DNA of 64,000 nt from contig NZ_FOVI01000005.1 of NCBI RefSeq assembly GCF_900115115.1, forward strand, positions 124,001 through 188,000. Reading direction: 5' to 3'. The notes under the pieces were generated by a model. It saw only the letters and a program-made list of their open reading frames with translations, ran no database searches and was not told the origin of the DNA. The DNA comes from Paenimyroides ummariense (lineage in GTDB: Bacteria; Bacteroidota; Bacteroidia; Flavobacteriales; Flavobacteriaceae). This document shows positions 7-40,342 of this stretch, piece after piece (the first letter of the stretch is position 1; each line of letters opens with the position of its first letter). Both the position numbers and the translations under genes were made by a program.

Positions 7-45
7 CAGGCAGATACCCACCAATCAAAGAAGTAAATTTCACAA
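7..45 (+). promoter_or_regulatory. Weak, partial copy of the island's tandem TCACAA operator
   Basis: The stretch ending GTAAATTTCACAA resembles the second half of the tandem operator found five more times upstream of island genes (see 6328, 23931, 27237, 28513, 29569). The first half is poorly conserved, and no AAWTTTG element sits 23 nt downstream as it does in the better copies. It lies about 100 bases ahead of the RND operon and could be a diverged regulatory site. Confidence 0.3.
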
Positions 46-149
46 CTTTTACGCGTCATTTCGTATAGCTGCGCCTTAGCTGTAACCCGACCTTTGCCCT
101 GTATTTAAAAGTTTAATTAAACAAAGAAGCGTAACAAAATAAATGTAAG

Positions 150-1220
150 ATGAGAACAAGTAAAATTGGTTTGTTATCCCTCTTCATAATCGGAGCAGGA
201 TTGATACAGAGTTGCAAACAAAAAGAAGAAAAACAGTTAAAAGATGAGCCTCCGGTAGTCACCGTAGCCACTATCAACAGTTCGGAAACCGAGCAATCCG
301 TTTCCTATTCGGGTTCCATTGTACCCGACAATATGACCACCGTAAGTTTTGCCGTTCCCGGCACGATTAACAGCGTGGGTGTGAATGAGGGGCAGCGTGT
401 GAGCAAAGGACAGTTCCTTGCAAGCATTGATGCCACCGAGTATGAAGCTGCATTGCAGATTGCCAATGCGAGTTTAGACCAGAGCCAGGATGCATTCAGG
501 AGATTTGATGAACTGTACAAAAAAGGAAGTTTCCCCGAAAAGGATTACATCGACATCAAAACAAAAGTAGCGCAGGCAGAAGCCAACAAAAAAATCAACC
601 GCAAGCGCATTGCAGACAGTCGCTTACATTCACCTACCAACGGCATTATAACTGTGAAAACTGCCGAGGTTGGCGGTATGGCAGCACCTGGCGTTCCTGC
701 CTTTACCATCGTAAAAACGGACATGGTATATGCACAGTTTTCAGTACCGGAAAGCGAAATCGGAAGCTTTAAACAAGGGATGCAGGTAGATGTGAACATT
801 CCTACACTGCAACGTGATTTCAAGGGTAAAATAACCATTATTAATCCCGTAGCGGACGAAATATCCAAAGCATTTACTCTTAAAGTTCGCTTGGACAATC
901 CGGGCGGTGTCCTGATGCCGGGAATGATTACCGAAGTGCTTGCAGGAGTACCGGTAAAGGTTAAGCAGGTGCGTGTACCGCTTACTGCCATTGTGAACAA
1001 TGTTGATAAAATCCCTCACGTTTACGTGGTAGATAAAAATAACATTGCCAAGTTAACAAGGGTCAGCGTTGGTAAAATTGCAGGCGACGACATCATCATA
1101 ACAGATGGGCTAAATGAAAGCCAAACTATTATCCTTACCGGACAGAACAACGTGAAAGATGGTAAGAAAGTTAAAGCGCAAACTACATCGGTAACAGCAT
1201 CAGCCCCAAAATCTGAATAA
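150..1220 (+). CDS. RND efflux periplasmic adaptor (membrane fusion protein), lipoprotein
   Basis: Periplasmic adaptor that links the inner-membrane RND pump to the outer-membrane channel. The 356-residue product starts with a hydrophobic segment ending in a lipobox (LIQSC, Cys about residue 22), so it is probably a lipoprotein. The usual adaptor order follows: a biotinyl-lipoyl half-motif (VNEGQRVSKGQFLASID), a short coiled-coil hairpin around residues 100-150, the second lipoyl half (RLHSPTNGIITVK), then beta-barrel and membrane-proximal domains. It is the first gene of a pump operon; the permease begins three bases after its stop and a TolC gene follows. Substrates cannot be read from the sequence. 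The adaptor lacks the His-rich tails of metal-type CzcB/CusB proteins, which favours drugs or other organic compounds. Confidence 0.9.
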   Translation: MRTSKIGLLSLFIIGAGLIQSCKQKEEKQLKDEPPVVTVATINSSETEQSVSYSGSIVPDNMTTVSFAVPGTINSVGVNEGQRVSKGQFLASIDATEYEAALQIANASLDQSQDAFRRFDELYKKGSFPEKDYIDIKTKVAQAEANKKINRKRIADSRLHSPTNGIITVKTAEVGGMAAPGVPAFTIVKTDMVYAQFSVPESEIGSFKQGMQVDVNIPTLQRDFKGKITIINPVADEISKAFTLKVRLDNPGGVLMPGMITEVLAGVPVKVKQVRVPLTAIVNNVDKIPHVYVVDKNNIAKLTRVSVGKIAGDDIIITDGLNESQTIILTGQNNVKDGKKVKAQTTSVTASAPKSE

Positions 1221-31034: not shown

Positions 31035-31124
31035 ATTAATCTTTTTAAATAAAAGTTGTTTAGTTGATTTTAAAAGGAGGTTGTTTTGTAACGGCCTCTT
31101 TTTTTGATTTCAATTCTTAAGTAA

Positions 31125-33920
31125 TTATGAGCCAAATTTTTTAATTTTTACTTGTTTTTGTTGTACTTCGATAATAAAATCGGCAGCATAGGTTATTTTT
31201 CCCGACTCAACCACTAATTGCTGTTTTGGATTGGAACAAAAAGTATTTTCAGAAAGAGAGTTACGGTCTAACGTAAGTTCGTAAGTTCCTGTTGGAAGAA
31301 AGGCTGTAAAATTACCGTCGTCATCTGTACCGATACGCTGCACAAAACTTCCGTTTTTTGTAACAGTAAATACAATTCCGCCCGCTTTTGCATCGAAACT
31401 TTTTACTGTTTTTTCATCGTAACGATACTGTATTTTCCCTTTTAAAGATCCATTCTGGTGCAGTGCTACAACTATCTGTTGGTTGTAATCACTCATGACC
31501 AACTCGGTGCCTTCCGTGAACCATCCATTCTGTAAAACAGGCTGTATTCTGTAAGTACCAAAAGGCAAACTTTTGTATTTTATTTGTCCGTTTGCATCCG
31601 ATTTAAATGTTGTTTTATCAATTGTGATGAAAAAATCCGGAGCAGGTTCATCGTTTTCATCAAATATACTGTTTCCGTTTTTATCATAATAAACAAATGT
31701 AGATAATGTTCCTTTTCTGCCTGCTGATGCTGCCCTGCTTCCTAAATTCACAGTCATTCCGGCTTCAACAACAAACATTCCGGCATTTTGAAAAACGGTT
31801 GCTTTGCTGTAATGAAACCATGACGAATTCAAATAAAAACGGTATTTATCTGTTGGCAGATATTGTAAATTAAGGAAAGCAGAAGGCGTTTCGCCCGAGA
31901 TGAAATCATTTAAATAAGCAGCCCCGCTTCTTACAAAAAGTTTATTATCTATAAATTTATGATCTGTTGATAGTGAAAGCGTGAACCTGTTGAAATCGTT
32001 CTGATTTTGATCCATTACCAACAACGAAGAATATTCAGACAAAAAATAACTTCCGTGCTGATAAGTCGCACTTGCGTTAAACCCTTTATAACTGTAAATA
32101 GAATTTATTTTTAACTGCGGATATACCTTGTTTTTGTTTGACATTTGTACCAAACCTTCTTCAATCCCCAAAACTACCGAATGCTTTTGATTTTTGCTTA
32201 ACCAGTTGAAATTTTCGGTTACGCGACAAGCTTCCATTGACAAAAAACCATTGGGAACAATCCATGAAAAAGCATTACCTGTTTCCTTATAATACTGTAA
32301 ACCTAAAGAGCTGCCAATATTTTTAAGGCGGGGAATGGTTATACCTGTATCTAACCGAAACGTGGTGGTTTTCATATTAAAACTGTAAGTGTAGGATTGG
32401 GGTGCAAAATCGGAATAAAAAATATTTGCATACACCATACGTTCCCTTTTAAGATTTTTTATGAAATTTTGCTGTAACTGAACCACTCCTCTGCGGTTTC
32501 CGGGGAAATAGCTGCTGCTTACAAAATAATTTCCACTTAAGCGTATATCTTTAACCAAACCGTTATACTGCGTTTCCAAAGCGTACGATGGCTGGTTTTT
32601 ATTAAAACGTTCGTAGTGGCTAATTGCCCCGTGTGCCTTCAAACGTAAGTTCCAATCTTTCGTAATTTGTTTAACATTCTCAAGACCTACCATGTTATGC
32701 CCCACCTGTTCCATATTATCCTTTTTAAAAACATAATTGAAACTTTTCTGATCAGACGGGTTGTTGGCACCGAAAGTACCCAAAGCATAAAAGCCGTATC
32801 CTCTTTTTAAAAAAGCATCTTTTTGGGTTAAGTTAAAGTTATCGTCAATAAAACCTGCCTGCAGCCTGTTGTTCTGTGTTTTATCTGAAGTATCGAACTG
32901 AATACCGCGACCGAACATGGGAAGTTCAAGCTGCTGACTAATATTTCCTACCTTTAGCTGGTGGTTATCTAAACGATATGCAAGATAGGTGTTGCTTATA
33001 AGCGGTTCGTTCTGACTATCTGCCTTATAAATATTTCCGCTAACCGATAAATATCCCGCAGGCAGGTCAATATCGCCCGATCCTATCAACTGATACACAC
33101 CGGTATCGTTTCCGCTGGTACGGTAACTTGCAGTTAGGCTGTTTTTTTGATAGTATCGTGCATACGCCAAACTATTAATGTCTTCGTAACGTTTTACCGA
33201 CGATACATTCTGAACATTAACCGAAAGACTGCCGAAGACTATTTTCTCGGTACCCCGCATAGCCGCTACGTTTACAGCAAACTGCGATTTGTCTAATAAC
33301 GATTTCGGCACCCAAAATTTAAAGTCGAAAATAGAATCTTTACGAACATCAATAACAGCGGTTTGCTCAAAAAAACTTTCTTCGCCCGTAAGTTCCGGAA
33401 TATTAAAAACTACAAAAACTTGCTGCGATTGGTTGCCAAGATTTGTTACATTTACTTTCACCGAAAGCGAATCGTTTGTATTGGTAAGAAAAATTGTAGG
33501 TGTTACAGCCTGCAAACTCATAGCATTATTCACTTCTACCTGTTGCGTAATGCTTTTTTTAACGATTGATTCTTTTTTATCGTTAACAAGATCTACCACT
33601 ATATCTGTTGCTCCAGCAGCGGCAGTTTTACCCTTAATAATTTTTAAAGGAATAAAGATATGTTGTTCGGGTTTTAATTGTACCAAAATTTCAGAACCCG
33701 AAATACTTTTAAACCCATCAGGAGTTTTAATATGCAAAGTTCCGTTGAAACTGCTTGCCGATGTATTGGTTAACGCTACTACTAAATCTAAAATATTCTG
33801 CCTTCCGGCTGCCTCGGTTGTTTCTACCTTCATTTCTACAGCAGATTGTGCCTGTACCTTACAGCAGGCAACAGTGCAGCAAAAAACAAGCAGCAGTCTT
33901 AAAAGAAAGGAAGGAAACAT
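31125..33920 (-). CDS. Usher-like outer-membrane barrel protein of a fimbrial assembly operon
   Basis: A 931-residue exported protein (signal peptide ending KVQAQ, residue 25). Residues about 26-240 form two Ig-like beta domains that could bind chaperone-subunit complexes. Residues about 240-725 are many amphipathic, aromatic-bounded strands typical of an outer-membrane barrel (for example LAYRLDNHQLKVGNISQQLE). Residues about 735-815 form a carboxypeptidase-regulatory/SdrB-like domain with a calcium-type loop YYDKNGNSIFDENDEP. A second small beta domain, with one Cys, ends the chain. The size and the domain order (N-terminal periplasmic, barrel, C-terminal periplasmic) parallel classical ushers although sequence similarity is not obvious. 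It is the last gene of the operon with the chaperone and pilin-like genes, 15 bases after the subunit gene. Confidence 0.65.
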   Translation of the reverse strand: MFPSFLLRLLLVFCCTVACCKVQAQSAVEMKVETTEAAGRQNILDLVVALTNTSASSFNGTLHIKTPDGFKSISGSEILVQLKPEQHIFIPLKIIKGKTAAAGATDIVVDLVNDKKESIVKKSITQQVEVNNAMSLQAVTPTIFLTNTNDSLSVKVNVTNLGNQSQQVFVVFNIPELTGEESFFEQTAVIDVRKDSIFDFKFWVPKSLLDKSQFAVNVAAMRGTEKIVFGSLSVNVQNVSSVKRYEDINSLAYARYYQKNSLTASYRTSGNDTGVYQLIGSGDIDLPAGYLSVSGNIYKADSQNEPLISNTYLAYRLDNHQLKVGNISQQLELPMFGRGIQFDTSDKTQNNRLQAGFIDDNFNLTQKDAFLKRGYGFYALGTFGANNPSDQKSFNYVFKKDNMEQVGHNMVGLENVKQITKDWNLRLKAHGAISHYERFNKNQPSYALETQYNGLVKDIRLSGNYFVSSSYFPGNRRGVVQLQQNFIKNLKRERMVYANIFYSDFAPQSYTYSFNMKTTTFRLDTGITIPRLKNIGSSLGLQYYKETGNAFSWIVPNGFLSMEACRVTENFNWLSKNQKHSVVLGIEEGLVQMSNKNKVYPQLKINSIYSYKGFNASATYQHGSYFLSEYSSLLVMDQNQNDFNRFTLSLSTDHKFIDNKLFVRSGAAYLNDFISGETPSAFLNLQYLPTDKYRFYLNSSWFHYSKATVFQNAGMFVVEAGMTVNLGSRAASAGRKGTLSTFVYYDKNGNSIFDENDEPAPDFFITIDKTTFKSDANGQIKYKSLPFGTYRIQPVLQNGWFTEGTELVMSDYNQQIVVALHQNGSLKGKIQYRYDEKTVKSFDAKAGGIVFTVTKNGSFVQRIGTDDDGNFTAFLPTGTYELTLDRNSLSENTFCSNPKQQLVVESGKITYAADFIIEVQQKQVKIKKFGS

Positions 33921-33935
33921 TTTAATTGATACTAA

Positions 33936-34958
33936 TTACTGTGGAACAATCTCGTATTGTAACGTAGTGGTGTATTGTTCCGGTTTTGCGTTTATAAGAT
34001 TTGCATCGTTTACTTTTGTGGCATACATTATATCAAAAAACACCTGCGCACTTTGGGTTGATGAACCCGATGCTATTTTCTGCGAAGTTGCAGACAGGCC
34101 AACAGGAAACACCGCTGCCTGATTATTAGATACCGGTATAAGTGACAAATTCACCGTATTCAGTGGTAACATATTACCTGTGGTTGATGTAAAATTGGGC
34201 TGCAATGCCGTTACCTGTACCTGATAATTTGTATTGGCAGATATCATTAATCCGTTAGAATATTTTACGCTTACCCCTTGCAGATAATCTTGTTTGGTTT
34301 TTAATTCCAACAGACCATTTACGGCATTTGAAGCTACTTTTATTGCCAACTGATTTACCGGTGTTTGCGGACTTCCGCTTAATGTTGCAATTTGCAAGGT
34401 ATAATAACGTTCCTGCAATCCGCGTACCTGATTTTTATTATCGTAAAACCTAAATTCTACAACCATTGTAAATTGTGACCAGGTAGTGAATTGCGAAAGA
34501 TAAGCACCGCCTTCTACTTTTAAATCGAACGGAATATGAAAGTTGTAATAGGGATTTCCACCGCCGGCACTATTAAATAATCCTGCTTGTGATTGTGGAA
34601 CCAGAAAAACTTCCTGTCCCTGCTGCAAAAAAGTTTGCAACGGCATGCCAATTTGGTTTATAGTGGGTATTGCAGATCCGTTTAACTGACCATAAGTAGT
34701 GGTGGGTAACAGACTTATTTTATCGGCAGGAAAAACCTGATTTCCATTTGAAATAGGCTGTTTTACACGAGCTGATACCCGCCAGGTAGGCAGATTCAGA
34801 TTTCCGTTACCATCGATCCATACCTTGTAGGCATTACTTTTTACGATACCATTGTAAGAATCAATACTCGCATAGTTGTTACTGTCTACATTCAAATTCT
34901 GAGCTTTTGCAGTATATACCAACAATAACAGGAAGATAAAAAGAACACATTTATTCAT
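33936..34958 (-). CDS. Large secreted subunit (probable tip or adhesin) of the fimbrial operon
   Basis: A 340-residue protein with a signal peptide (LLLLVYTAKAQ). The mature chain is Asn/Gln-rich and beta-rich, without Cys. Its C-terminal strand, TTLQYEIVPQ, resembles the ends of the two pilin-like proteins (VTYTIYAK and VVYTIVSQ). This is what would be expected if all three share a C-terminal strand recognised by one chaperone. Being about twice as long as the pilins, it may carry an adhesive domain and sit at the tip. The start overlaps the end of the chaperone gene by 8 bases, so translation is probably coupled. No named family is recognised. Confidence 0.6.
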   Translation of the reverse strand: MNKCVLFIFLLLLVYTAKAQNLNVDSNNYASIDSYNGIVKSNAYKVWIDGNGNLNLPTWRVSARVKQPISNGNQVFPADKISLLPTTTYGQLNGSAIPTINQIGMPLQTFLQQGQEVFLVPQSQAGLFNSAGGGNPYYNFHIPFDLKVEGGAYLSQFTTWSQFTMVVEFRFYDNKNQVRGLQERYYTLQIATLSGSPQTPVNQLAIKVASNAVNGLLELKTKQDYLQGVSVKYSNGLMISANTNYQVQVTALQPNFTSTTGNMLPLNTVNLSLIPVSNNQAAVFPVGLSATSQKIASGSSTQSAQVFFDIMYATKVNDANLINAKPEQYTTTLQYEIVPQ

Positions 34959-35748
34959 TGGTAAAAGATAATTCGCCCATTTCTATGGTATTTTCATCGC
35001 CGTAATCAATAAGAATGTTTGCCGTATATTTTCCTTTTTCTAAATTGTCAGGTAAAGCAATCAGCATTTTACGTTTATCTGCAGGCATGGTGTAGAATAC
35101 AATATGGTCTAATACTGTTTTTTTACCTGTAGCTGCATTGAACAATTCGGGATACACAATACCGTCTGCCCAGATATTGCCGTTATTGGAAAAGTACAAT
35201 TCCATTCGATTGTTTTTCTTATCAAACAGTATATTTTCAATTTCCAGCTTACGTTTTTTTATTTCGTTGGTACGGTGAAATAATTTTATGCCAGAACGTA
35301 CGCTTACCTTAATATTTGCACCTTTACTGTCAACATCATCTACCGGATTCATCTGTGTAACGTACAGCATGGCAGTATGTGCAGCAGGATCGCCAGAAAA
35401 AGTATTGGGAACCGTAATATTTACTTCAACCTCTTTATTTTCGCCAGGTTTCAAAGAAAAATAACTATCCGCCTTGCTGATACTAACCCAACCTGCACAG
35501 GAAGTTTCCAGACTGTCTGCAGGGAACATCATGTTTTCGCCCATTTCGTTATACCGCCAGTCGCCGGTACTTACTGCCAAATTCATAACATGCGTAGCAC
35601 TCACATTTGTCACTGTAACTTTTTGTCGGCTGCTTTTACCGGCATCCGATTCAAAATACAATCGCGGAGGCGATACCGAAACACCGGTTTGTGCACATAC
35701 GTTAGAACACCAGCATAAGGCAATTAAAAAAAACGCAGTTGCTTTCAT
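34951..35748 (-). CDS. PapD-like periplasmic fimbrial chaperone
   Basis: A 265-residue protein with a signal peptide (LIALCWCSNVCAQ) and two Ig-like domains. The N-terminal GVSVSPPRLYFESDAGKSS and the strand KVTVTNVSATHVMNLAV resemble the G1/A1 region of PapD-family chaperones, which donate a strand to pilin subunits in the periplasm. The second domain, with LEIENILFDKKNNRMELYFS and GKYTANILIDYGD, is a fibronectin-like sandwich. The frame is open upstream to 35796, but those codons lie in a terminator hairpin and ATG 35748 gives a proper signal peptide. The order chaperone, large subunit, usher-like barrel matches known chaperone-usher operons. Confidence 0.75.
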   Translation of the reverse strand: MKATAFFLIALCWCSNVCAQTGVSVSPPRLYFESDAGKSSRQKVTVTNVSATHVMNLAVSTGDWRYNEMGENMMFPADSLETSCAGWVSISKADSYFSLKPGENKEVEVNITVPNTFSGDPAAHTAMLYVTQMNPVDDVDSKGANIKVSVRSGIKLFHRTNEIKKRKLEIENILFDKKNNRMELYFSNNGNIWADGIVYPELFNAATGKKTVLDHIVFYTMPADKRKMLIALPDNLEKGKYTANILIDYGDENTIEMGELSFTNE

Positions 35749-35771
35749 AACCACAAAATTTATATTTAAAA

Positions 35772-35799
35772 AAAGTGCTGCAGAACATTGCAGCACTTT
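35772..35799 (-). terminator. Intercistronic terminator between pilin and chaperone genes
   Basis: AAAGTGCTGCA (35772-35782) and TGCAGCACTTT (35789-35799) form a perfect 11-bp stem with a 6-nt loop; read on the minus strand it is followed by seven T. Partial termination would give more pilin than chaperone and usher mRNA. Confidence 0.8.
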
Positions 35800-35822
35800 A
35801 ATAAATAATTATTTTAATGCTA

Positions 35823-36374
35823 CTATTTAGCGTAGATTGTATAAGTTACTACTGTAGAAAATGTAGTAGGTGTTTGGTTTGCTACATATTTGTCAAGGTA
35901 CGCATCATTACCGGCTGCTTTATACTCAATATCGATATTTTTATCTCTTGCTCCTTTTGTAGAAGAAACAATAATACCTTCATTATTAGATAAAGCTACA
36001 TTTTGCCCATATTGAGCATCTGCTAAAGAGTTTTGAGCAGCTTGCGTAGCAACAATATTGATTGTAGCAACATCAATGTTTCCATTAGGTCCGGCAGTCC
36101 CCTGATTGGTCAATTCAGAGCCACTTGATTTTACTTTTACTTCAAACCCCCCGGTACTGAAGATATTTAGGTGGTTTGCTTGTTTTGATGATACACCATC
36201 TTTGTAATGATCTTTTGTAGTATAGTCGATATTAACCGTTTTTTGCTGAGCATTTACTACTAAAGTTTGGATAGGGTTTAACTTTACGTTTAATGTAACA
36301 TTATCTGTATTTGTTTGTGCCACTGCTGCGATGCCGCACACCATCATTAAAGATGTAATGAATAATTTTTTCAT
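35823..36374 (-). CDS. Pilin-like small secreted protein, probable major subunit
   Basis: A 183-residue protein with a signal peptide (MMVCGIAAVAQ) and a Cys-free mature chain. Its N-terminal strand, NVTLNVKLNPIQTLVVN, has strictly alternating hydrophobic residues like a donor strand of chaperone-usher pilins. It is followed by HLNIFSTGGFEVKVKSSG. The C-terminus VVTYTIYAK has the alternating pattern used for chaperone capture. It is a clear paralogue of the next upstream gene. It has a likely TACTTTTG -7 element on the minus strand at 36458-36465 with a 5'-terminal stem-loop. Because of the strong terminator after it, it is probably the most abundant product and hence the main shaft subunit. 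Confidence 0.65.
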   Translation of the reverse strand: MKKLFITSLMMVCGIAAVAQTNTDNVTLNVKLNPIQTLVVNAQQKTVNIDYTTKDHYKDGVSSKQANHLNIFSTGGFEVKVKSSGSELTNQGTAGPNGNIDVATINIVATQAAQNSLADAQYGQNVALSNNEGIIVSSTKGARDKNIDIEYKAAGNDAYLDKYVANQTPTTFSTVVTYTIYAK

Positions 36375-36422
36375 TTTTTGTTAGTTTTACTTTGTTGCTT
36401 ATGTAAGTTTTGCTATATTTGA

Positions 36423-36465
36423 ATTTACAACGTTTTCCCCCTGTTGTAAATCGGTTACAAAAGTA
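36423..36465 (-). promoter_or_regulatory. Pilin promoter (-7 element) and 5'-terminal stem-loop
   Basis: On the minus strand TACTTTTG (plus 36458-36465) matches the Bacteroidota -7 element. Transcription would begin near 36451. There a perfect 9-bp stem starts: ATTTACAAC and GTTGTAAAT (plus 36423-36431 and 36443-36451) around a G-rich loop AGGGGGAAAAC. The stem would form the very 5' end of the mRNA, as in stabilised transcripts. Confidence 0.5.
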
Positions 36466-36599
36466 CCCAATAGCATGTTTATGCTACTTATTAAAATATG
36501 CTTAAAACTTGTAGTTTTTTACAAAAGCATCCTTACACAAAAATTTTATTATAATTTTCATGTATCCAAATACTAACGTTAAGGTTATATGTAAATGTT

Positions 36600-37118
36600 T
36601 TATTGTGAAACTATGGTATATACCACCGTGTACGTATGGTTTACAGCTGTGCTGCTTTTAGCAAATTCAATTAGGGCATCATTACCCGCACCTTTATAAC
36701 TAATGTTTACATTTTTATTAATAGCACCTTTAGTTGCAGAAATTATCGGCTGTTCATCCTGATTAATTTTTTTATTGGTATAAACCACGTGTGATTGATT
36801 TAACGGATTAGATCCAGAGGTAGGTATTACGGTAATATTGTCTAACAATCCATTATCGGCAGCAGCAGTTTCGGTACTTACCTTAACCTGAAATCCGCCG
36901 GTACTGTAAATGGTTAAATGGTCTTGTTGTTCGGATACTATGCCGTTGCTGTAATCTTCACGGGTATTGTATTCTAAGTTTACCACTTTTTGCGAAGGAT
37001 TTACCACTAATGTTTGTATAGGGTACAAATTCACATTCAGCGTAACACTATTTTGTGCGTACAGCTCGCAGTTTAAAGATCCAAGTAATAAAGCAGTTGT
37101 TATTATTCTTAAAAACAT
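36600..37118 (-). CDS. Pilin-like small secreted protein, second subunit
   Basis: A 172-residue paralogue of the protein at 35823. The signal peptide ends LNCELYAQ and the mature chain has no Cys. SVTLNVNLYPIQTLVVN at the N-terminus and HLTIYSTGGFQVKVS match the sister protein closely; the C-terminus is TYTVVYTIVSQ. The middle is more divergent. It is the first structural gene after the AraC regulator. It may be a minor or phase-specific shaft subunit, or an initiator. No promoter of the strict TAnnTTTG form was seen just upstream. Confidence 0.65.
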   Translation of the reverse strand: MFLRIITTALLLGSLNCELYAQNSVTLNVNLYPIQTLVVNPSQKVVNLEYNTREDYSNGIVSEQQDHLTIYSTGGFQVKVSTETAAADNGLLDNITVIPTSGSNPLNQSHVVYTNKKINQDEQPIISATKGAINKNVNISYKGAGNDALIEFAKSSTAVNHTYTVVYTIVSQ

Positions 37119-37264: not shown

Positions 37265-38125
37265 TTAACCTGCATGCCTAATCATACGCGGATTTTTGGT
37301 AGTGTGCTTTTTTATAAAGGTGCTAAAATTAGCTTCGTCGTTAAAGCCCAACTGATAGGCAACTTCAGACACGGTAAAATTAGAATGCTTCAGCATACGT
37401 ATCCCTTCACTAACCACTTTATCTATGATGACCTGCTTTGCACTTCGCCCTAAAACAGACTCTGTCATTTCGCTCAATCTTCTAGGTGTAACGAACAGTT
37501 GTTCTGCATAAAAGCTTACATGTTTTTCTATCTGGTAATGCTTTTGCAAAAGTACCCTGAATCTGTTTACTATATCAATAAAAGTAAATTTACGAACATC
37601 GTTCTGCTCTTCGTAGGCTTTCTCGTCAACATAGAAAAGTCCGTCTAATAAAAGGGCTTCTACACAATTGTGTGCTACAGAAATGTATAAGCCGTTATTC
37701 TGCTTTGTTTTGTACAGATCTAATCTGGTAATGATCAGTTTCAGCACTTCATCGATAGGAATTGAAGCCTGTGTAACCACTACTTTAGAAGATTTATCGA
37801 AGAAAAGATCAGAATTAAGCATTAACGAATCTTTTGCCGACCTTTCAAAAAACGATGCCGAAAACACCAATGCGTAGACACTGCCTTTTTTTTCGCTTTC
37901 TTCGCAGAAAACTACTTTTTTTAAAGGTCCCACAAAAACAAGACTGCCCCGTTTAAGTTCGTATAAAATTCCATCAATCGTAACAGCAGAATTGTTTATT
38001 ACAATTAATATACAGAAATAATCCAACCCTTCAAAAGATCGGTTGCCCCCATTTCTCTCAATATAATAATCTATAGAATTTACACTGAACCCATTAATAT
38101 TAAGTTCATCGGTTATCTTATACAT
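37265..38125 (-). CDS. AraC-family regulator of the fimbrial operon
   Basis: A 286-residue protein. The N-terminal part (to about 150) looks like a small cupin-type sensing domain. The C-terminal 110 residues hold two helix-turn-helix motifs, HVSFYAEQLFVTPRRLSEMT and FTVSEVAYQLGFNDEANFST, the latter the AraC signature. It lies directly upstream of the two pilin genes on the same strand, 146 bases away, and is the natural candidate to switch the operon on. No ligand can be inferred. Confidence 0.85.
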   Translation of the reverse strand: MYKITDELNINGFSVNSIDYYIERNGGNRSFEGLDYFCILIVINNSAVTIDGILYELKRGSLVFVGPLKKVVFCEESEKKGSVYALVFSASFFERSAKDSLMLNSDLFFDKSSKVVVTQASIPIDEVLKLIITRLDLYKTKQNNGLYISVAHNCVEALLLDGLFYVDEKAYEEQNDVRKFTFIDIVNRFRVLLQKHYQIEKHVSFYAEQLFVTPRRLSEMTESVLGRSAKQVIIDKVVSEGIRMLKHSNFTVSEVAYQLGFNDEANFSTFIKKHTTKNPRMIRHAG

Positions 38126-38671: not shown

Positions 38672-40342
38672 ATGGCAAAAAATACACAGACAGAATTTAA
38701 CAGCAGAAAACTGTTTACCTATATAACAAAAGAAAAAAAAGACGTAGCCAGCATTTATATCTATGCCATTTTAAGTGGTTTGGTGCAGTTAAGCATACCG
38801 TTGGGCATACAGGCAATTGTTAGTTACGTTATGGGTGCTACTATGGTTACCTCTTTATATATTCTTATTGGTTTTGTGGTTTTCGGAACCTTCTTGGCAG
38901 GTTTTTTCCGTATACGCGTTATGCAGATCATTGAAAAAATCCAACAGAAATTGTTTGTAGAATATTCGCTGGCGTTTGCAGAAAAGCTGCCAAAAACCAA
39001 TTTGGCAACAACAAAAAAATACTATCTTCCCGAACTGGTGAACCGCTTTTTTGATGTTCCCAACCTGCAAAAAGGTATTTCTAAAATATTGCTCGAAATT
39101 CCTACTGCCTTAATTCAAATCGTATTCGGAATTATATTATTATCTTTCTATCACCCGTGGTTTCTGGTTTTTGGTGCATTGGTATTTATCCTTGTCATTG
39201 TTATTTTTCGATTCACATCAAGCTCGGGGATCGAATCAAGCTTGAAAGAAAGCGATAAAAAATACGAAGTGGCATCTTGGTTAGAAGACATCGCCGGATC
39301 GGTAAAAACGTTTAAAATCAACTCTAAAAGCGATACCCATTTAAAGGGAACAGACAACCGAGTGTTATCATACCTTACACACCGTACCAGCCATTTTAAA
39401 GTATTGTTGCTGCAATATTGGACTATTGTTCTTTTTAAGGTTCTTATTACGTTGCTGATGCTTTCCATTGGTACCTACCTGCTTATCAATCAAGAGTTGA
39501 ACATCGGAGCTTTCGTTGCAGCAGAAATTGTTGTTTTAACGATACTTACCGCTGTTGAAAAGCTGATTAAAAGTCTGGAAAGTTATTATGATGTGATTAC
39601 ATCGCTCACCAAATTGAGTAAAGTAACCGAATTGCCTGAAGAAAGCGATTCTAACATTGAAATTCCTGACAGTAAAAATGGTATGGAAATAATTTTTAAA
39701 GATGTAAGCATTCATTTTAACGATCAAAAACCGATCATCAACAACATTAATTTTGAAATACCCGAAAACAGCCTAACCGTTATTAAAGGTTATTTAGGAT
39801 CGGGTAAATCGTTACTATTGAACATGATGGCAGGTTTTTACGAGCCTACCAACGGAACCATTTTGTTTGATAAAGTGCCGTTAAGCAACATAAACAAAGC
39901 TACTTTTAGGGAACAAACCGGAATTTATCTGGAAGATATGCACATTATTAAAGGTACACTTTTAGATAATATTACGCTTGACAAAGAAAATTATCAAACA
40001 CAAGATGTACTAAATTTAGCCGAAGAATGGGGTATTGAAGATTTTTCGAGTCAGTTTACACAAGGTTTATTAACGCCTTTAAGTGATACCGACACCGAAC
40101 TTTCTTTCAGTTCCCGCAAAAAAATATTGTTGTTGCGTGCCATGTTAGGTAACAAACGATTGTTGTTGTTAGAAGATCCTGTGGACGGAATGGATCAGGA
40201 TTTTGCAGGGAAAATGACTGATTACTTGAAAAAGATCAAATTAAAAACAACCATAGTAATTGTTTCAGAAAACGAGGAATTAGTCAATGCAGCAGACAAT
40301 ATCTTATCGGTACAAAACGGCAATGTCATCCACATTAAATAA
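38672..40342 (+). CDS. Type I secretion-like ABC transporter with a degenerate ATPase domain
   Basis: A 556-residue half-transporter: six membrane helices (about residues 25-300) and a C-terminal nucleotide-binding domain (about 338-556). It lacks an N-terminal C39 peptidase. Walker A is close to normal (GYLGSGKS, 373-380). The Q-loop Gln is Glu421, the signature is LSFSS (477-481) instead of LSGGQ, Walker B reads LLLLEDP so the Asp and catalytic Glu are exchanged, and the H-loop His is Glu533. Such a domain could bind ATP but may hydrolyse it poorly. The next two genes encode an HlyD-like adaptor and a TolC-like channel, so together they form a type I secretion or export system with unknown cargo. 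Confidence 0.8.
   Translation: MAKNTQTEFNSRKLFTYITKEKKDVASIYIYAILSGLVQLSIPLGIQAIVSYVMGATMVTSLYILIGFVVFGTFLAGFFRIRVMQIIEKIQQKLFVEYSLAFAEKLPKTNLATTKKYYLPELVNRFFDVPNLQKGISKILLEIPTALIQIVFGIILLSFYHPWFLVFGALVFILVIVIFRFTSSSGIESSLKESDKKYEVASWLEDIAGSVKTFKINSKSDTHLKGTDNRVLSYLTHRTSHFKVLLLQYWTIVLFKVLITLLMLSIGTYLLINQELNIGAFVAAEIVVLTILTAVEKLIKSLESYYDVITSLTKLSKVTELPEESDSNIEIPDSKNGMEIIFKDVSIHFNDQKPIINNINFEIPENSLTVIKGYLGSGKSLLLNMMAGFYEPTNGTILFDKVPLSNINKATFREQTGIYLEDMHIIKGTLLDNITLDKENYQTQDVLNLAEEWGIEDFSSQFTQGLLTPLSDTDTELSFSSRKKILLLRAMLGNKRLLLLEDPVDGMDQDFAGKMTDYLKKIKLKTTIVIVSENEELVNAADNILSVQNGNVIHIK

Follow-up and report, generated by a model that had tools for sequence, protein, structure and literature searches.

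A probable diverged chaperone-usher pilus operon in Paenimyroides ummariense, part of a probable wider branch in Bacteroidota

The subject of this analysis is a minus-strand run of five genes at positions 31125-37118 of a 64,000-nucleotide stretch of DNA (the window; contig NZ_FOVI01000005.1, positions 124,001 to 188,000) from the 3.49 Mb genome of Paenimyroides ummariense (Flavobacteriaceae, Bacteroidota). The run encodes two pilins, a PapD-like chaperone, a 340-residue subunit and a 931-residue usher-like barrel, and we consider it likely, with a probability of roughly 0.85, that the operon encodes a diverged chaperone-usher pilus. We regard it as a new branch of a known kind, which would work like the classical pathway and whose chaperone keeps a classical hallmark; the tests made place it in none of the classical, alternative and archaic families. 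This diverged branch is very probably widespread in Bacteroidota and missed by standard annotation. A preliminary description of the window had placed the five genes here, which the open reading frames (ORFs) and their coordinates bear out, and had proposed an unrecognised branch of the chaperone-usher pathway. The proposal is supported by the homology of the chaperone and its pair of basic residues, by the C-terminal register shared by the subunits, by the two-domain subunit and by sister operons, in which the homology of the ushers to known ushers can be detected.

The gene set is more than a chance neighbourhood, because the five genes recur in identical order in Paenimyroides baculatum (locus L008) and related clusters are present in other families of the phylum. 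A genome of another genus carries an AraC gene (on the opposite strand), one pilin, the chaperone, the 340-residue protein and an usher 42% identical to that of the window. The closest named relatives found by the usher were an uncultured Myroides metagenome-assembled genome (97% identity) and P. baculatum SNL9 (80%). The scan of the family with the usher gave matches in 5 of 149 genomes, at full length only in its own genome and in one of another genus, and an alignment of three ushers matched in 29 of 395 genomes of the phylum, eight of these matches being nearly full-length. Three chaperones found a match in 45 of 395 genomes of the order. Within the phylum, the profile of 23 chaperones matched in 122 of 395 genomes, belonging to 48 of 170 genera, in a draw that includes the genomes of the profile members and is weighted to the kin of the window, and some of these matches are partial. 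The scans of viral contigs showed no relatives, and the plasmid search with the window's usher gave no match.

Two sets of loci were read. The 20 clusters selected by the usher are the best places of the three-usher scan, excluding the window itself and a match that lies in a 2,210-residue frame; all 20 contain a right-sized chaperone-like ORF that aligns with the window's chaperone, plus small subunits, and the usher and chaperone lie on one strand in 18 of them and on opposite strands in L079 and L081. Among the 19 hand-picked loci selected by the chaperone, an ORF matching a usher profile is adjacent to the chaperone or one gene away from it in 16; L131 and L133 have a right-sized ORF without a match to any usher profile, and no usher was seen in L136 (the chaperone of L135 was placed from the profile scan, not from the ORF list). 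The sequences within a class are related, so the counts given here and below are not independent. Class A, to which the window belongs, comprises pilins, chaperone, 340-residue protein and usher, often with an AraC gene. Class B consists of pilins, chaperone, usher and a 478-residue protein, and class D of a pilin, chaperone, usher and two further subunits. Class C, from more distant families of the phylum, has pilins, a chaperone and an usher with a plug-like region. Genes for SusD-type-like lipoproteins, recognised by inspection, adjoin the class D clusters (L105-L109, L138, L139) in several genomes. In L129 and L130, from genomes of 2.4 and 2.6 Mb, chaperones of the family are neighbours of ushers that match weakly and of small proteins, present in pairs, whose C-termini end differently.

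Operons like those of class C were found on plasmids of Polaromonas, Novosphingobium, Sphingopyxis and Pseudoalteromonas, and together with class C they are called sister operons here. Pilins are annotated as DUF4402 in five of the six annotated plasmid loci. The chaperone is annotated as a molecular chaperone (three loci), hypothetical (two) or a pilus chaperone (one), and the usher as carboxypeptidase regulatory-like (four), SdrD B-like (one) or hypothetical (one). DUF4402 matched 4 of 42 subunits from the phylum and appeared in no paper of the literature searched, most subscription journals and preprints being outside that search. Moreover, a gene on a Deinococcus plasmid resembles the window's chaperone (24.7% identity over 91%, E value 7e-8), with a 1018-residue protein two genes on, and two further Deinococcus plasmids have an equivalent arrangement of chaperone and large protein. 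In each of the Deinococcus plasmid loci L118, L123 and L124, a chaperone resembling those of class A is accompanied by two proteins, one small and the other large and ending in SdrD_B domains, and every one of them is annotated as hypothetical; the large protein matched the class-A usher family at 1.2e-15 over 809 columns, and its barrel alone did not (0.19).

Sequence homology links the chaperone to known systems. In profile-profile comparison with hhalign, the class-A chaperones matched eight classical chaperones of E. coli with an E value of 2.7e-6, all Bacteroidota and Deinococcus classes pooled matched them at 4.4e-8, and the mixed set of 23 chaperones matched the E. coli chaperones at 4.8e-9. 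The pooled classes matched the six proteobacterial chaperones of the sister operons at 2.3e-22; class A alone matched the proteobacterial set at 3.1e-11 and class C at 4.6e-14. The lowest E value among 39 reversed control comparisons was 0.059. As a yardstick, the classical and alternative chaperones of E. coli, both known members of the pathway, matched each other at only 0.0045. By profile comparison, the window's protein is a two-domain PapD-like chaperone.

Two basic residues of this protein, R29 and K155, align with an Arg and a Lys of FimC (Arg8 and Lys112). R29 is kept in 17/17 class-A, 9/9 class-B, 6/6 proteobacterial and 8/8 classical E. coli chaperones; K155 is kept in 17/17 class-A and 8/8 classical E. 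coli chaperones and in none of the other groups. According to the accessible part of PMC4654587, classical chaperones hold the carboxylate of the subunit by two conserved basic residues that are absent from archaic ones, and Arg89 marks the archaic and alternative chaperones. The Arg89 position is occupied by Thr in 16 of the 17 class-A chaperones and by Asn in the remaining one; it is Arg in all six proteobacterial relatives.

A subunit anchored by its carboxylate would require a constant distance, hence the interest of a register that is fixed from the free C-terminus. The known C-terminal motif of E. coli subunits (n = 26) appears as Gly at -14 (96%), hydrophobic residues at -12, -8, -6 and -4 (84-100%) and an aromatic residue at -2 (92%). 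Class C and proteobacterial subunits have Gly -14 in 70% and 58% and aromatic -2 in 95% and 83%, respectively, and class-B pilins have Gly -14 and Tyr -12 in 19/19. The endings attributed to the three window subunits (TYTIYAK, VYTIVSQ, QYEIVPQ) are present in the sequence, as is the N-terminal strand of the pilins. In class A, position -12 is aromatic in 74% of pilins and in 17/17 of the 340-residue proteins, and -8, -6 and -4 are hydrophobic in all. The full hydrophobic register was found in 24/31 class-A pilins, 15/17 of the 340-residue set and 15/26 E. coli subunits, compared with 6/178 other ORFs. With an aromatic -12 added, it was present in 23/31 class-A pilins, 15/17 of the 340-residue set, 14/19 class-B pilins and 10/10 class-B large subunits; the remaining groups gave 13/24 (class C), 7/12 (proteobacterial), 5/15 (class D), 3/8 (other) and 7/26 (E. 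coli), with 4/178 in background ORFs. Gly -14 combined with the hydrophobic register occurs in 21/26 E. coli subunits, 19/19 class-B pilins, 16/24 class C subunits and 6/178 background ORFs. The 178 background ORFs probably include unlisted class-B pilins, so 4/178 and 6/178 are upper bounds.

The C-terminal half of the 340-residue protein aligns with class-A pilins (7.5e-20), and its N-terminal half is a domain of its own; likewise, only the C-terminal half of the class-B 478-residue set aligns with class-B pilins (4e-15). Two-domain tip adhesins such as FimH are built in this way, from one unique and one pilin domain, and the 340-residue protein is like these, a putative tip adhesin. The mature pilins lack Cys and no lipobox was seen by inspection in the three subunits, as the preliminary description had it. 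The alternating N-terminal strand to which it drew attention is, in its strict form, present in 14/31 class-A pilins, 0/17 homologues of the 340-residue protein and 0/10 class-B large subunits, counts made on mature starts that were cut by a simple rule and are wrong in some cases. The profile of the pilins also matched, over an N-terminal stretch, the PDB chains TLP-2 (6.4e-5) and TLP-1 (2.6e-4). The TLP-2 stretch was found in 1 of 395 genomes of the phylum, at two pilin genes of L076 (9.4e-9 and 7.6e-4), whose usher belongs to the class-A family, and one L076 pilin matched TLP at 4.9e-9 in phmmer. A relative of these pilins thus seems to have been solved, probably as a filament, since each of the entries concerned (9ikj and 9ikk, for TLP-1/TLP-2) holds 16 copies of its chain.

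Residues 238-735 of the usher are predicted to form 25 amphipathic strands, compared with a mean of 12 in shuffled sequences and 25 in E. coli ushers with plug (home-made score); the count varies from 21 to 28 over four settings. Strand density is 6.4 per 100 residues in the barrel, 3.5 in the Ig part and 2.6 in the C-terminal part. Without their C-terminal part, class-A ushers matched class B at 2.7e-37, class D at 7e-10 and four single ushers at 1.9e-13 to 3e-19; classes B and D and most of the single ushers did not match one another, and it is class A that holds the family together. The sister ushers matched E. coli ushers at 4e-11 and, with 12 added members, at 2.5e-17 over 640 columns (barrel alone 3.1e-13). 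The alignment pairs the E. coli plug region with a region of the class C ushers, one of which scored 20.1 bits against PF00577 (cut-off 27.1). The window's barrel and the classical ushers are likely to be homologous. A match of class A alone to the sister ushers that reached into the barrel (355 columns, 6.5e-13) was lost once the C-terminal domains were removed, and we do not claim barrel homology from it. Some class C ushers gave extra C-terminal matches, to SPOR in L084 and L088 and weakly to TPR in L086 and L087; SPOR domains usually bind peptidoglycan.

The window's usher appears to belong to a sub-branch in which two Ig-like domains replace the classical N-domain and no plug is recognisable. 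At the presumed insertion point in class A no plug domain was found in a weak search with the plug of the sister ushers, a short query by which even the E. coli plug is hardly recovered (E value 0.052). Among 17 class-A ushers, 11 fit the pattern for the GRG motif and the motif of the next strand, and in these the two motifs together span only 22-23 residues. The usher layout had been called unclassical in the preliminary description. This holds for the N-terminal part and perhaps for the plug; it does not hold for the C-terminal domains, two domains after the barrel being the classical layout. Such domains are named CTD1 and CTD2 in the accessible part of PMC9452303.

Several results weigh against a chaperone-usher pilus. 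The class D (0.038) and Deinococcus (0.11) chaperones do not match the classical E. coli set, and class C reached 3e-4. The window's chaperone stays under the PapD_N cut-off (13.3 of 23 bits), which two of three proteobacterial chaperones scanned passed (25.3 and 34.3 bits), and the 23 chaperones gave 13 matches to fn3_5, 11 to WxLIP and 11 to a sperm-protein family versus 8 to PapD_N. The proline described in the accessible part of PMC4654587 as the only invariant residue of the chaperone superfamily is Lys in the window's chaperone; it is kept in 7/17 class-A, 0/9 class-B, 0/5 class D, 7/7 class C, 6/6 proteobacterial and 3/3 Deinococcus chaperones. Moreover, the chaperone profile scores 4.1e-7 with the Ig domains of class A and B ushers over nearly its whole length, and therefore general Ig-likeness may raise the scores or the usher may carry a chaperone-like module, which looks as if it had been fused to the usher N-terminus. 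On the side of the subunits, Gly -14 is scarce in class A (9% of pilins, 17% of 340-residue proteins) and aromatic -2 is absent (0%); Gly -14 with the hydrophobic register occurs in 3/31 class-A pilins and 3/17 of the 340-residue set. The class-A pilins have no detectable homology to E. coli (0.4) or class C (0.08) pilins. The strict N-terminal strand was found in 0/19 class-B pilins and 1/26 E. coli subunits, and it is therefore no diagnostic marker. As to the usher, the link between the class-A family and the sister ushers consists of two C-terminal domains of common type (4.2e-21 over 185 columns); the barrels alone, compared with the class C set, gave 0.0014 over 211 columns and, at a short motif (VGNIS...FGRG), 0.0038 over 25 columns. 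Compared directly with E. coli ushers, that of the window gave no match (E value 0.0079; 0.0068 over 19 columns), nor does it match PF00577, the Pfam usher family. Neither the mixed usher profile nor the class C profile found an usher in PDB, the best match of the former being NOMO2 through domains of the C-terminal type. Mean pLDDT (predicted local distance difference test) values of AlphaFold2 models were 28 for the usher (three sequences) and 30 for a pilin (four sequences), and these models were not used.

The usher evidence leaves room for an explanation compatible with the pilus we favour: the barrel may be no usher homologue at all, an unrelated outer-membrane barrel with Ig and SdrB-like domains having been recruited to do what ushers do. 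With the C-terminal domains taken away, the barrel indeed has no significant match among sister or E. coli ushers, as this explanation would have it. We nevertheless regard it as unlikely, given the equal gene context, the similar length and predicted strand count, the two C-terminal domains in common and the homologous chaperones; the VGNIS...FGRG motif (E value 0.0038), moreover, is as far from the start of the barrel as a motif of class C and resembles, by inspection, the pre-plug motif of E. coli. Bacteroidota use both type IX secretion and type V pili, so the genes might instead serve type IX secretion or make a type V (FimA/Mfa) pilus, the barrel having another job. A tail model of the type IX secretion system (T9SS) did match weakly in 6 of the 23 chaperones (best 1.8e-4) and pilin 1 gave 0.33 with a T9SS sortase model, yet neither a T9SS tail nor a type V pilin model was among the matches of the five proteins or of the 42 subunits, the subunits show no lipobox by inspection and the gene content is that of chaperone, barrel and pilins. 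Both readings were rejected for lack of a family match, and we hold them to be very improbable indeed.

Alternatively, the small proteins of the operon might form a surface coat that is no polymer, with the chaperone staying bound, as has been proposed for the WxL/WxLIP clusters of Gram-positive bacteria. Six WxLIP proteins from lactic acid bacteria matched class A alone at 4.8e-7 and all chaperone classes together at 2.2e-14, the latter over 248 columns; in PDB, the chaperone profile matched the WxLIP protein EfmWxLIP1 best (1.3e-6) and the fimbrial chaperone FaeE less well (0.06). Further WxLIP comparisons gave 9.1e-4 with class C chaperones, 0.13 with classical E. coli chaperones and 0.024 with the usher Ig domains. 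Against such a coat stand the usher-sized barrel gene in all 20 usher-selected clusters, the usher-profile ORF in 16 of the 19 chaperone-selected loci, the two-domain subunit and the 16 copies per PDB entry of the matching TLP chains; in addition, the C-terminal membrane helix of WxLIP (accessible part of PMC10599100) was not seen by inspection in the window's chaperone. It is, on balance, a rather improbable account of the operon. A broader idea, which we put forward tentatively and with the odds against it, is that chaperone-usher chaperones and Gram-positive WxLIP proteins form one superfamily bridged by the Bacteroidota/Deinococcus branch, a plugless usher being closed by its chaperone-like N-terminal Ig pair. 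If so, the assembly of surface proteins by strand donation would predate the split of one- and two-membrane cells.

The features of the locus are collected in Table 1.

Table 1. Features of the candidate pilus operon and its surroundings (window coordinates, or residues of the usher).
Feature	Position	Strand	Details
Usher-like outer-membrane protein	31125..33920	-	931 residues
Usher signal peptide, then two Ig-like N-terminal domains	residues about 25-238		
Predicted barrel of the usher	residues about 240-735		
Two SpaA/SdrB-like C-terminal domains of the usher	residues about 738-931		
Subunit with own N-terminal domain and C-terminal pilin domain; putative tip adhesin	33936..34958	-	340 residues
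PapD-like periplasmic chaperone	34951..35748	-	265 residues from ATG 35748; ORF listed from GTG 35796
Terminator-like hairpin between pilin 1 and chaperone	35772..35799	-	11 pairs and T run
Pilin 1, probable major subunit	35823..36374	-	183 residues
Pilin 2	36600..37118	-	172 residues
AraC-family regulator upstream of the operon	37265..38125	-	HTH_18, E value 4.7e-14
Hairpin with T run at the 3' end of the operon	31072..31103		strand not assigned; scored on + strand

Among the five proteins, the usher is the sole one above a Pfam or NCBIfam cut-off, through a SpaA C-terminal domain (31.4 bits, cut-off 23.1); the pilins, the chaperone and the 340-residue protein reach none. The chaperone probably starts at the ATG, because the GTG start of the ORF list sits within the hairpin at 35799-35772. 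The gap between pilin 1 and chaperone was folded at 15 of the 17 class-A loci (L112 and L116 were left out). By visual inspection, a T run accompanies the stem in 9/15 and is missing from it in 2/15, and the remaining 4/15 have no stem or a weak one. This fits partial termination after the gene of the major pilin. The promoter scan of the window gave 18 sites versus 27.5 in shuffles, fewer than chance, and the terminator scan 9 versus 5.2 (standard deviation 2.3); therefore, only the recurring hairpin is used as evidence. No match to Rfam was found within the window. The AraC-family gene, identified by Pfam, lies on the same strand just upstream of the operon; by inspection, an AraC-like neighbour occurs on the same strand in L008, L069-L072 and L117 and on the opposite strand in L009. 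Divergent from the AraC gene is an ABC exporter-like gene (38672-40342), named by inspection, as was an equivalent neighbour in L008 beside a membrane-fusion-like gene.

Assembly of the diverged chaperone-usher pilus might proceed as follows. Sec would carry the pilins and the 340-residue tip subunit across the inner membrane, where the periplasmic chaperone would complete the unfinished Ig-like fold of each subunit with a strand of its own, its Arg29/Lys155 pair gripping the C-terminal carboxylate. The usher may receive the complexes tip first; the N-terminal strand (NVTLNVKL) of the next pilin would displace the chaperone strand, and the pilus would grow through the barrel of the usher. The hairpin after pilin 1 could cause more pilin than assembly protein to be made, and the AraC protein possibly controls the operon.

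The accessible parts of PMC4654587 and PMC4827864 list chaperone-usher systems for Proteobacteria, Spirochaetes, Cyanobacteria and Deinococcus-Thermus, with Bacteroidota absent; that of PMC9452303 mentions archaic systems in a wide range of phyla, and that of the survey PMC4793230 leaves chaperone-usher systems out. No account of such a system in Bacteroidota was among the matches listed in our literature search, outside which most subscription journals and preprints lie. If the proposal is true, a sizeable part of the phylum carries a pilus pathway annotated as hypothetical or by SdrB-like domains (122 of 395 genomes by the chaperone profile, operons having been read in far fewer). Ushers without the usual gate would then make it possible to ask which components the machine cannot do without, and chaperone-usher pili could be linked to the WxL surface proteins of Gram-positive bacteria.

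Compared with the classical chaperone-usher operons of E. coli K-12, the window has a similar gene set, a homologous chaperone with the R/K basic pair, the hydrophobic C-terminal register of the subunits, a large two-domain subunit and a barrel followed by two domains. It differs in that its mature pilins are without Cys and not detectably homologous, Gly -14 and aromatic -2 are mostly missing, two Ig-like domains stand in place of the usher N-domain, no plug is recognisable, the conserved chaperone proline is missing and PF00577 is blind to the usher. With the archaic and alternative systems (Csu, ECP) it has the general logic in common, but it is without Arg89 and keeps the classical R/K pair.

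The sister operons of class C and the plasmids have homologous chaperones, usher C-terminal domains in common and a similar C-terminal register; their ushers, unlike that of the window, are detectable usher homologues with a plug region, and their pilins are not detectably homologous to those of class A. Type V pili (FimA/Mfa1) are likewise pili of Bacteroidota, whereas the window subunits have no lipobox and no match to these families in Pfam. WxLIP proteins are similar to the chaperones over the full length but belong to cells with no outer membrane and no usher, and carry a C-terminal membrane helix of their own; in an AlphaFold prediction given in the accessible part of PMC10599100, a WxLIP strand completes the WxL sandwich. 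TLP-1 and TLP-2 (9ikj, 9ikk), which to our knowledge are not linked to an usher, have an N-terminal region homologous to pilins of this family, such as those of L076.

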